A stretch of DNA of 64,000 nucleotides from assembly GCA_030123565.1 (NCBI GenBank), contig CP126122.1, forward strand, positions 434,001-498,000. Direction: 5' to 3'. The notes under the pieces are model-generated. The model was not told where the DNA came from and did no database searches. It worked only from the letters and a program-made list of their open reading frames with translations. Positions 21,325 to 50,669 of the stretch are shown here, one piece after another (position 1 is the first letter of the stretch; each line of letters starts with the position of its first letter). Both the position numbers and the translations under genes were made by a program. The stretch is from Nitrospira sp. (lineage in GTDB: Bacteria; Nitrospirota; Nitrospiria; Nitrospirales; Nitrospiraceae).

Positions 21325-21372
21325 AATTGGTGCCCCCGACACGAATTGAACGTGCGACCCGCGGTTTAGGAA
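21325..21372 (-). repeat. attR: Right attachment site within tRNA-Arg
   Basis: It is the same 48 bp as at 7341-7388 with two differences, and forms the 3' part of the intact tRNA gene. Confidence 0.9.
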
Positions 21373-21404
21373 ACCGCTGCTCTATCCAACTGAGCTACGG
21401 GGGC
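21328..21404 (-). tRNA. tRNA-Arg (anticodon CCT)
   Basis: It is 77 nt including an encoded CCA. The acceptor arm GCCCCCG pairs with CGGGGGC, the D arm is GCTC/GAGC, the anticodon stem GCGGT/ACCGC carries the loop TTCCTAA, and the T arm has TTCAATT. The anticodon CCT decodes AGG. The 3' half doubles as the island attachment site and still gives a full-length tRNA. Confidence 0.95.
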
Positions 21405-23561: not shown

Positions 23562-24076
23562 AGTGGTCGTCTCTCCTTGTGATTGTTCGCTTGTACGAAC
23601 CTTGTTGGCCTTCATCGTTCCGAGAAGACCAAGCGCGTGGTTCATCAGGGCGCGTTCCATCTCTACGGCACTTGTCTCTGAAGCAAACGAGCGGAATATC
23701 TCGGACGGAGGAAGAGCGGACGTTACAGAGTCGGCTGCATGGAGACACCGTTGGAACGGACAGGAACGCGAGGAATCGGAGCGTGCGGATGATTCGTGTC
23801 TTTATAGTGTAGCACATTCCGCTGCTCAGTGTAGACCATGCGTGGACAGTCCATGCTGTGCCGCTTCCGCGAGGGTAGTCAGTGAGGCCAACCAGAACAG
23901 CGTTCAGATGACGGAGATGGATTGAACGATCGGGGGGAGGTGAGGAGTTGTGCTCTGTCAGCCTTCCGGCAGGGAAAAGAATCGGCCGTTGAATGTGGGG
24001 CGCGGAGGCGAACCGTCAAGAATAATTATTGCCGTATAGATTCATGTCTTTACGGAGGGTACGCCTCTGCGAGACA
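23562..24076. other. No confident gene
   Basis: About 500 bases. The part next to 23561 should hold the promoter of the minus-strand gene. Near 24017-24050 there is an AT-rich tract (AAGAATAATTATTG). No ORF with a start signal is seen. Confidence 0.45.
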
Positions 24077-24200
24077 TTGACACCAGGCCCTGCACCCTAT
24101 AGGGTGAAGACATGACGTACTAAGCCTCGCCGGCTTTCCCCTCTCGCACGCCTGTCTCTTCTCTCCTGCGTGTGCGAGTCCCAAGTCTTCGCCGCTTCGA
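24077..24200 (+). ncRNA. Candidate small RNA or leader, copy 1
   Basis: TTGACA (24077) and TAGGGT (24100) are spaced by 17 bases, followed at the expected start point by ATGACGTACTAA and then a stem CTCGCACGC/GCGTGTGCGAG (24142-24178) with a CU-rich loop that includes CTCTCCTG. The same order and much of the sequence recurs at 49857. The conserved CTTCGCCGCTTCGACG follows the stem. The loop could pair with Shine-Dalgarno sequences. It precedes a 28-residue membrane-protein gene. No transcript evidence is available. Confidence 0.5.
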
Positions 24201-24321
24201 CGCCACAGAACGACAGATCAGCGAAGTGAGTCCCGTAGCGATTGGTCCATGGGCCATGCGATCGGCCGATTCCAGACGAGCCTTGTGCTCGCGGCACGAT
24301 TCGTACAGAAGGAGGTACGTC

Positions 24322-24408
24322 ATGTATCAGATTTGGACGCTTGTCGGGTTGACGGTCTTCATGTGGGGCGCTGCCGTGTGGGCAACCTACGCTGAGGATA
24401 ACCGGTAG
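24322..24408 (+). CDS. Tiny membrane protein, 28 aa
   Basis: It starts at ATG 24322 with GAAGGAGG seven bases upstream and ends TAG 24408. The product is one membrane helix (I-W-T-L-V-G-L-T-V-F-M-W-G-A-A-V-W-A-T-Y) with a short charged tail, A-E-D-N-R. Such peptides often serve as small subunits of membrane complexes. No partner gene is adjacent. It follows the candidate small RNA or leader at 24077. Confidence 0.6.
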   Translation: MYQIWTLVGLTVFMWGAAVWATYAEDNR

Positions 24409-24483: not shown

Positions 24484-24624
24484 ATGATGACGATGCAGAC
24501 GTTTTTTATCTGGGCCTCGCACAATCTTCTCACCGCCGCCGCGATCTGCTTCGGTGGGGCCACCCTCATTGTCATGCTGTATACCTATGTGCATGACTAC
24601 GTGCTGTTGACGAAGCGTAATTAG
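24484..24624 (+). CDS. Small membrane protein, 46 aa
   Basis: It starts at ATG 24484 (or the next codon) after GGGGAAGGGA. There is a single membrane span from about residue 12 to 34 (L-L-T-A-A-A-I-C-F-G-G-A-T-L-I-V-M-L-Y) flanked by aromatic residues, with a basic end K-R-N inside. It follows the 28-residue gene by 75 bases and is probably in one transcript with it. Unknown function. Confidence 0.55.
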   Translation: MMTMQTFFIWASHNLLTAAAICFGGATLIVMLYTYVHDYVLLTKRN

Positions 24625-24854: not shown

Positions 24855-25146
24855 GGCTACGTGGCCTTCCCTTTTTGGCTCGGTTACGACTGACGTTCCT
24901 GTTACGCTGACTGCTCTCTCCGACGGATCGTGCCGCTTGGTGCTCACGGCACGTGGGATCCCAGGGTCTTCGCGACTCCTACGCCAGGTTCTTGTTTGAA
25001 GCCCGCATTCAACCGGTGACATGGAAAGATGACCGTCTTTTGTCCTGGGAGATGATCGTCCGACAGGGAGACTCTTCGGTATTGTGCCGGAAGAATCGTC
25101 CCGGTAGAGCCAGGGCATCCGGTTCCGATGGAGAGGAGTGCATACC

Positions 25147-25476
25147 ATGACGAACAAGGCAATGCTTCTTATGGCGCTGATGCTGTTTGGATCGGCCGCG
25201 TCGGCCGCGGCAAATCCGGCGATGCTCCCCAAACACCCCGGGTATCCGTCGAGCGGAGACTTTGCCAACGATACGGGGCAGAACAATCTGACGCACGAGC
25301 AATCATTGCTGGGCGCGGCAGATGCAGGCAGTGCGCAATTCCAGCAGCAGCTGGTGGACCCGAACAATGCCAGGCTGGTGAAACCGCAAGGCGCGGGTCG
25401 GCTTCCAATCGTCGATGGGCCGAATATTCTCATTGAGCCGCCCGTAAAAGAAGGCACTCGGATGCCGAGTAAGTAA
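25147..25476 (+). CDS. Secreted small protein, 109 aa
   Basis: ATG 25147 has GAGAGGAG eight bases upstream. The signal peptide is M-L-L-M-A-L-M-L-F-G-S-A-A-S-A with a cleavage site near residue 19. The mature part is asparagine-, glutamine- and proline-rich (G-Q-N-N-L-T-H-E-Q-S; A-Q-F-Q-Q-Q-L-V-D-P) and probably extended. No known domain. It lies downstream of promoter element copy A. Confidence 0.6.
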   Translation: MTNKAMLLMALMLFGSAASAAANPAMLPKHPGYPSSGDFANDTGQNNLTHEQSLLGAADAGSAQFQQQLVDPNNARLVKPQGAGRLPIVDGPNILIEPPVKEGTRMPSK

Positions 25477-49727: not shown

Positions 49728-50124
49728 GTGAGCGGCGGAAGCGGCCGTGAGCGCCGGCTGACACTCAGGATGGGGACATCTTTCTCATCAATCGAAGCAT
49801 GAAAATATATATCTGCATGGAATCAGCGGCTTGCTGGTTGAGGTCCGGAAAGCGCGTTGACACTCGCTTGGACAACGCGTAGGGTGACCATATGACGTCC
49901 TGAGCCACGCCGACTGTCCTATCCCTCGCGCATCTGACTCCCTCCTGCGCGACTGATTCCCGGTCTCCGCCGCTTCGACGTAAGAACCAGCCCCGATTCG
50001 TTTGTGACAAGCCGGTCTCCTCGTTCGAGGTGCTTCGTCGTTCAGAATATGCCCGGCAGGCGCCACAGGCCGTCGCAATGGGGCTGTGGCGCAGGAACCC
50101 TCAGTGAGCCATAAGGGGGTGTCT
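49728..50124. other. Intergenic region with candidate small RNA
   Basis: About 400 bases. The first part is plain; 49857-50000 contains the second small-RNA or leader element. After it, C- and G-rich hairpins (about 50060-50090) precede the short gene at 50125. Confidence 0.5.
49857..50000 (+). ncRNA. Candidate small RNA or leader, copy 2
   Basis: TTGACA (49857) and TAGGGT (49880) are again 17 bases apart. ATGACGTCCTGAGCC follows at the expected start, then a stem TCGCGCA/TGCGCGA with a loop CTGACTCCCTCC, then CTCCGCCGCTTCGACG. The overall order is the same as at 24077. The loop again contains CCTCC, which could pair with Shine-Dalgarno regions. It precedes the small genes at 50125-50669. 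Confidence 0.5.
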
Positions 50125-50241
50125 ATGATCAGCCTCGTCTCATTCCTGAGAAGATGGTGGTTTCAGTATGCCTATCGCGGTTCGGTCGATTCGATCTATG
50201 CCTGTACGTTGTGGGCACAGACCTTGAGGCGTGTGTTGTAG
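50125..50241 (+). CDS. Short peptide gene, 38 aa
   Basis: ATG 50125 follows AAGGGGGTG. The product is aromatic and basic (L-R-R-W-W-F-Q-Y-A-Y-R-G) with no clear membrane helix. It lies 22 bases before the CXXC gene at 50263. Function unknown; it may be a translated leader of the following gene. Confidence 0.4.
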   Translation: MISLVSFLRRWWFQYAYRGSVDSIYACTLWAQTLRRVL

Positions 50242-50262: not shown

Positions 50263-50475
50263 ATGCATTGTTCACGTTGCGATGGGCTGATGGTTACGGT
50301 TTGGATGAGGGATTTGTCATATTCCGGCACGGTCAGGGGATGGCGCTGTCTTCTCTGTGGTGAGGCCACTGACCTCGGAATCGAAGCCAATCGAAAAGGC
50401 CATCCGGCCTTGACTCGGGGCCGGCCTCGCCTGCCTGGATCTCTTGCGGCCAGGTATGAGAAGGCCAGGTCGTAG
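50263..50475 (+). CDS. Small double-CXXC protein, 70 aa
   Basis: ATG 50263 follows AAAGGGG. C-S-R-C-D-G-L-M-V-T-V near the start and W-R-C-L-L-C-G-E-A-T-D 27 residues later repeat the zinc-ribbon-like plan of 25560, with I-E-A-N-R after the second pair as in that gene's N-R-I. The tail is basic. Confidence 0.7.
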   Translation: MHCSRCDGLMVTVWMRDLSYSGTVRGWRCLLCGEATDLGIEANRKGHPALTRGRPRLPGSLAARYEKARS

Positions 50476-50570: not shown

Positions 50571-50669
50571 ATGAATGTCTGGCATGATATGTGGCCCGAG
50601 ATTTCGGTCCTGCTTTTTTTGATGTTCATGGCCGGCCTGCTGGTCCTGACGTTTGTATTCACTCGGTAA
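50571..50669 (+). CDS. Tiny membrane protein, 32 aa
   Basis: ATG 50571 follows GAGGAGG. It has one membrane helix (V-L-L-F-L-M-F-M-A-G-L-L-V-L-T-F-V-F) with short ends, similar in plan to the 28-residue gene at 24322. Unknown partner. Confidence 0.55.
   Translation: MNVWHDMWPEISVLLFLMFMAGLLVLTFVFTR

Follow-up and report, generated by a model that had tools for sequence, protein, structure and literature searches.

Nitrospira and its relatives appear, on comparative sequence evidence, to have their own shared RNA control module at the start of messages for small stress-type proteins. The module is a leader RNA family of about 100 nt, with members at positions 24112, 49892, and, in diverged form, 24890 of the window (the whole 64-kb stretch of DNA analyzed here, positions 434001 to 498000 of a one-contig genome of 4,616,681 bases). 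The family structure is one long rod of ~95 nt, supported by covariation, and we hold with high confidence that the element is a cis-acting leader RNA family. We file it as a previously undescribed family within a known kind, the structured mRNA leader, with an unusual loop rule. Rfam 15 at its gathering score gave a tRNA as the sole match in the window, searches of three copies against Rfam at E values up to 10 gave nothing relevant, and no paper describing a Nitrospira RNA motif of this sort was found in the open-access literature.

A preliminary description of this DNA had proposed a layout shared by two sites, and that layout holds. At copy 1, a plus-strand promoter at 24077 to 24105 (TTGACA at 24077 to 24082, a 17-nt spacer, and TAGGGT at 24100 to 24105) precedes the rod-shaped leader RNA at 24112 to 24208 (plus strand; covariance model E = 1.5e-30), with a predicted transcription start at or near 24112. 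Copy 2, also on the plus strand, has its promoter at 49857 to 49885 (TTGACA at 49857 to 49862, the same spacer length, and TAGGGT at 49880 to 49885) and its leader RNA at 49892 to 49986 (E = 1.3e-29). In both, ATGACGTNCTRAGCC (at 24112 and 49892) leads into a GC stem and a CU-rich loop, after which comes CCGCTTCGACG. The resemblance goes beyond chance: the 4.62-Mb genome contains the core pattern at three places, its reversed control has it nowhere, and 15 of 29 genomes of the genus carry it. Both copies recognized at the outset are real, and the window holds a third, diverged copy at 24890 to 25001 (plus strand), for which a clear TTGACA promoter was not seen. A tRNA-Arg (CCT) is located at 21328 to 21404 on the minus strand, ~2.7 kb before copy 1.

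How widely is this element distributed? A covariance model, R1, was seeded with 17 copies from the window's genus only and applied with a match threshold of E = 0.01 or better. Among 175 genomes of the bacterial family it matched 136, which span 17 of 22 genera and carry at most 9 copies each, and E values of copies outside the seed reached 2e-19. Across 396 genomes of the phylum, R1 matches came from the family and from three further families belonging to its order or class; the 97 genomes matched by a refined model, R2, include ten from beyond the family. When 84,980 species genomes were scanned for the exact pattern, 75 stretches were hit. The hits include the complete genome of "Ca. Nitrospira defluvii," whose record FP929003.1 carries an element at about position 1400062. 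Titles of 74 stretches name Nitrospira, Nitrospirae, Nitrospirota, or Nitrospiraceae, and the single exception is titled "uncultured Nitrosospira" (isolate CMX). As far as these searches reach, the family is lineage restricted, belonging to the Nitrospirota.

The expectation that a covariance model would find further homologues was borne out by six clear copies and a likely seventh in the window genome (R2). Two weak copies, at window position 24890 and at genome position 768050, were marginal under R1 (E = 0.14 and 0.74, respectively) and rose to 1.9e-7 and 1.5e-13 under R2. In each case, strong copies in other genomes head the same gene with equal spacing, and sequence and context together mark both as genuine. 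Copy 3, for example, lies 158 nt before a member of the gene family that strong copies elsewhere (L163, L175, L087, and L176) precede by 149 to 159 nt. The seventh site, at 778095 on the minus strand, scores E = 0.03. It recurs in several genomes of the genus with scores about as weak, and the ORF that follows it is similar to ORFs found behind other elements. In one assembly (G092), two contigs, C9 and C16, end inside identical-scoring elements (bases 1 to 95), which suggests that repeats of the element break assemblies.

The conserved, promoter-driven, structured transcript of the preliminary description is upheld, in that base changes between copies preserve the stem. The inner hairpin noticed there is real but forms only part of the full rod. 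Single-sequence folds of three copies give the same long rod. In a MAFFT alignment of 91 copies less than 86% identical, RNAalifold, with no structure supplied, predicted 16 pairs, 9 of them with compensatory double changes, in a largely similar fold. A 25-pair rod is paired in 92.2% of alignment cells, shows double changes at 15 of its 25 pairs compared to 7.1 in shuffles, and has a covariation score of 0.174 compared to 0.136; none of 500 shuffles attained its paired fraction, double-change count, or covariation score. Sliding one strand by one to three columns lowers pairing to 31 to 48%. The register differs between analyses at two pairs (18-102/19-101 versus 19-103/20-102), which are the least certain. 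Of 90 copies, 66 form the terminal pair 2-119 and 78 the pair 3-118, with compensatory changes; should transcription start at position 1, the predicted transcript would leave a single 5' nucleotide unpaired.

The unpaired positions follow a rule of their own. Well-occupied unpaired columns, on the sides of internal loops and in the end loop, are nearly all pyrimidine, most at >90%. U27, C28, U89, C90, U99, C103, and C104 are 91 to 99% conserved, and internal loops such as UCC/UCC are 89 to 99% conserved at several positions across genera. The rule is broken by a small number of unpaired A's close to the 5' end and by parts of the loop tip, which is variable.

The position of the element relative to genes was analyzed for 149 copies with flanking DNA, using a home-made codon-model gene caller that may be wrong about some small first genes. 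The element shares its strand with the next gene in 144 of 147 cases and with the previous gene in 88 of 142 (p = 5e-26), although the copies are related by descent and these counts are not independent; among nonredundant copies, the figure for the next gene is 89 of 91. The start codon is mostly 55 to 170 nt past the rod, usually behind a good Shine-Dalgarno (SD) sequence, and about one-quarter of the gene calls lie further away and may reflect miscalled small genes. This nearly constant same-strand gene, mostly at short distance, argues for a cis-acting leader rather than a free or trans-acting small RNA. At L157, L143, L104, and L171, two elements stand back to back in divergent orientation, and each has its own gene downstream.

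A promoter of the form TTGAC, 16 to 18 nt, and a TAGGGT-like hexamer (score of at least 8 of 12) is found ahead of 88% of the 91 copies compared to 2% in the upstream control, at a fixed distance with a modal 6 nt between the -10 element and the RNA start. This fixed spacing would place the start of transcription at, or within a few nucleotides of, the first base of the rod. A strict version of the promoter pattern (TTGAC, 17 to 20 nt, GTAGSGTGA) has 0 to 3 matches per genome in five genomes; element promoters account for both matches in the window genome and for one in N. defluvii. A dedicated promoter used genome-wide was considered and rejected on these low counts. At about -90 from the RNA start, an AT run followed by GCATRGAATC is present in 22 of 148 copies and absent from the control, making it a candidate activator binding site that most copies lack. 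Copy 1 has a related upstream motif, AATAATTATTGCCGTATAGATTCAT, at 24021 to 24045 on the plus strand, ~90 nt before its RNA start; it carries GATTC and is left out of the count of 22.

By eye, the spacers between rod and gene showed no conserved T-rich intrinsic terminator or SD-sequestering hairpin, and no T-rich terminator was seen directly after the rod. Predicted SD accessibility differs little, at 0.40 with the rod and 0.50 without it. An SD-sequestering RNA thermometer was also rejected, since the rod excludes the SD and mostly ends 55 to 170 nt before the start codon.

The genes behind the element are small. Of first genes within 250 nt, 116 of 117 encode proteins of 130 aa or less, and the same protein families recur behind elements in different genera and contexts. 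One recurrent family is a CsbD-like 80-aa protein with a 114-aa partner; it scores 23.5 bits against Pfam CsbD, under the curated cutoff of 40 bits. Another recurrent setting is an operon of an A-type iron-sulfur carrier (Fe-S_biosyn) followed by 2-oxoacid:ferredoxin oxidoreductase subunits (POR_N). DUF1328, YtxH, BON-domain, and CXXC proteins recur as well, together with 28-aa, 46-aa, and other short membrane ORFs.

Within the window, the small membrane or CXXC ORFs reported behind both original sites are indeed present, all on the plus strand. Copy 1 is followed by an SD sequence, AAGGAGG, at 24309 to 24315, then by a 28-aa ORF at 24322 to 24408, predicted to be a single-pass membrane protein, with relatives behind elements of other genera (L064, L069, L065, and L132), and next by a 46-aa predicted membrane protein at 24484 to 24624, with relatives behind L101, L082, L069, L137, L064, and L065. 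Copy 3 precedes a 109-aa predicted exported protein (ANPAMLPKHPGYPS...) at 25147 to 25476. The first ORF after copy 2, 139 nt past the RNA, encodes 38 aa (50125 to 50241) and has just one weak relative, behind L074 (E = 0.08); it is followed by a 70-aa CXXC/CXXC zinc-ribbon-like ORF at 50263 to 50475, with relatives behind L064_7418, L117, L079, and L161, and by a 32-aa predicted membrane ORF at 50571 to 50669. Pfam gave no match for the ORFs at 24322, 24484, 25147, 50263, and 50571. The small membrane, CXXC, and exported ORFs at 24322, 24484, 50263, 50571, and 25147 are nevertheless likely to be real unannotated genes, because most of them are conserved behind elements in other genera.

The element and its genes can also be compared across genomes that lack it, as do 8 of the 29 genomes of the genus. 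None of ten element-free genomes (by R1 or R2) has a close orthologue of the CsbD-like protein, which is 63 to 77% identical among six element-bearing genomes: G021, G050, G091, and G106 gave no match, and the other six have distant homologues of at most 42% identity. This pattern points to coinheritance of the element and the CsbD-like gene, which counts toward the preferred reading set out below. For G047, G050, G091, and G106, the element-free status comes from the phylum search with stricter filters. The window genome's CsbD-like gene, at 770667, lacks a leader: an AT-rich stretch upstream almost abuts its SD, and the gene's present place is behind the oxidoreductase operon, which the element at 768050 heads. 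A single comparison, with N. defluvii, suggests that this gene lost its promoter and leader by deletion. The region ahead of it is L290, 1381 to 1500, on the window genome's contig (G000:C1). Close homologues of the iron-sulfur carrier in element-free genomes lie behind a ferredoxin-like gene, a different setting with no element.

What could such a leader do? We infer transcription, its start, and any regulation by the element from sequence. The reading we prefer, at somewhat better than even odds, is a cis-acting 5' leader read by a factor, which heads operons of small stress-type proteins and sets a shared posttranscriptional regulon. Transcription starting at position 1 would make the rod the first part of the mRNA; a common factor, either a ligand or a protein such as S1, Rho, or an RRM protein, would bind the pyrimidine loops; and the bound factor would set the stability or translation of all element-headed mRNAs together. 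This factor-read module is favored because loop sequence, and not the helix alone, is conserved. The narrower proposition that a trans factor or ligand reads the rod, as opposed to the rod giving passive protection, falls somewhat short of an even chance; what speaks for it is that loop conservation of 89 to 99% is unneeded for protection.

Passive protection is the main rival and stays close to factor reading because the 5' end is predicted to be paired. The rod would then be a 5'-terminal mRNA stabilizer that blocks pyrophosphohydrolase and RNase E-type decay, keeping messages for small stress proteins long-lived, and its purine-free loops would offer few cleavage sites. The predicted 5' end, with one unpaired nucleotide and the pairs 2-119 and 3-118 formed in most copies, is what such a stabilizer would have, and no expression platform was seen in the spacers. 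5'-Terminal stem-loops of ompA and papA stabilize mRNA in Escherichia coli, according to works cited in PMC3997798. Yet the conservation of several internal loops across genera goes beyond a stabilizer's need, and a stabilizer has no need to mark one regulon. We regard this explanation as possible but on balance unlikely.

A third explanation, which we consider improbable, is control directed by Rho or S1: a C-rich, G-poor leader would load Rho for attenuation, or S1 for standby binding and activation, with modulation by stress. The element contains 37.7% C and 21.4% G compared to 27.2% C and 29.9% G on the plus strand of the window, and its loops are restricted to pyrimidines. Loading sites for Rho, however, are typically unstructured, whereas the structure of this element is conserved, and a Rho termination site is not identifiable by sequence.

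The preliminary description had likened the CU-rich loop to trans-acting small RNAs that mask ribosome binding sites through CCUCC-type loops, to which one could add release of the small RNA from the leader. The loops, the element's own promoter, and its multicopy nature fit this idea, and motifs are enriched over shuffled loops (n = 66), with 46 occurrences of TTCC compared to 26 and 23 of CCTCC compared to 11. The element nevertheless sits in cis, nearly always before a same-strand gene, with no T-rich intrinsic terminator seen at its end. Predicted pairing of the loop with the SD of its own gene (-8.65 kcal/mol) is no better than with SDs of other genes (-8.68 kcal/mol) and little above that of shuffled loops (-8.25 kcal/mol). 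A trans-acting role is thus very unlikely.

The remaining two explanations have hardly any probability. A leader-peptide attenuator built on a three-codon leaderless ORF (M-T-Y/S-stop), suggested by an ATG at the expected transcription start and a stop at codon 4 in both window copies, fares poorly across the family, in which 48 of 91 diverse copies have any ATG and 37 keep the ATG with the codon 4 stop; the bases fall in the covarying pairs 2-119, 3-118, 5-116, and 6-115, and the conserved 5' strand of the rod better explains these letters. A dispersed DNA repeat or portable promoter cassette without RNA function would account for multiple copies and for the two contigs ending inside an element, but is largely excluded by the compensatory changes, and consistent orientation, copies less than 86% identical, and a promoter and spacer that evolve separately also stand against it.

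Returning to the factor-read leader, which protein might read it? RRM genes lie within 5 kb of an element in 12 of 48 cases compared to 0.3 expected (twelve genomes), and this proximity makes an RRM protein a candidate reader, although the adjacency may have few independent origins or stem from one ancestral locus. Single-RRM genes near elements occur in G004, G036, G052, G066, G068, G115, G116, G121, and G139; no RRM gene lies within 5 kb of an element in the window genome. Some element-adjacent RRM genes are near a fatty-acid desaturase gene. An RRM protein as an obligate partner was set aside: RRM genes are present in 18 of 18 genomes checked, with and without elements, so that co-occurrence is uninformative.

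A bolder form of the preferred reading, which we offer tentatively and rate as rather unlikely, is that the family represents a new class of sensory leader, in which short stems linked through pyrimidine-pyrimidine mismatches form a nearly continuous helix; this leader would read a global stress signal and coordinate a Nitrospira regulon. The signal might be a messenger, a pyrimidine-binding RRM protein, or pH, sensed via protonation of C-C or A-C pairs. The regulon would combine the small proteins with the operon of the iron-sulfur carrier and 2-oxoacid:ferredoxin oxidoreductase.

Nitrospira species are among the main nitrite and complete-ammonia oxidizers, and little is known of their gene regulation. 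That one leader heads as many as nine operons in a genome, and is carried by the majority of genomes in the family, is a sign of a common posttranscriptional regulon, and this putative regulon takes in many uncharacterized small proteins as well as the iron-sulfur carrier/oxidoreductase operon. The family supplies a defined, testable RNA, a list of the genes it heads, and a covariance model for annotation. Its pyrimidine-only loop rule is unlike the leader classes compared below, and the biochemical question is the binding partner.

Global riboswitch and protein-binding leader classes, such as c-di-GMP riboswitches, place one leader before many unrelated genes in several copies per genome. The Nitrospira leader shares this one-leader, many-gene, multicopy organization, but it has no multibranched aptamer, no visible expression platform, and no Rfam match. 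The CCUCCUCCC-motif RNAs of Rhodobacter are trans-acting small RNAs with C-rich loops; they are similar in their CU-rich loops and several copies per genome, whereas the Nitrospira element is placed in cis before same-strand genes and lacks specific SD pairing. The ompA and papA stabilizers are, to our knowledge, single-gene elements without a conserved family, in contrast to a leader whose sequence and structure are common to dozens of operons and genera. The likeness to them, as far as the works cited in PMC3997798 describe them, is that a structure is predicted to lie right at the 5' terminus of the mRNA, leaving hardly any 5' nucleotide unpaired. The YjbJ motif (WRC-39-1) of Streptococcus is a structured leader before a gene that the motif's authors liken to the CsbD stress family (PMC11109978), and it resembles the Nitrospira leader in being a structured RNA ahead of a CsbD-like gene. 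It consists of two hairpins, the second intrinsic-terminator-like, is found in Streptococcus only, and lies ~30 nt before the SD (PMC11109978), whereas the Nitrospira leader is one rod without a terminator, heads many gene families, and belongs to the Nitrospirota. The YjbJ motif is thus the nearest known system by gene association, with a different structure and a different host.
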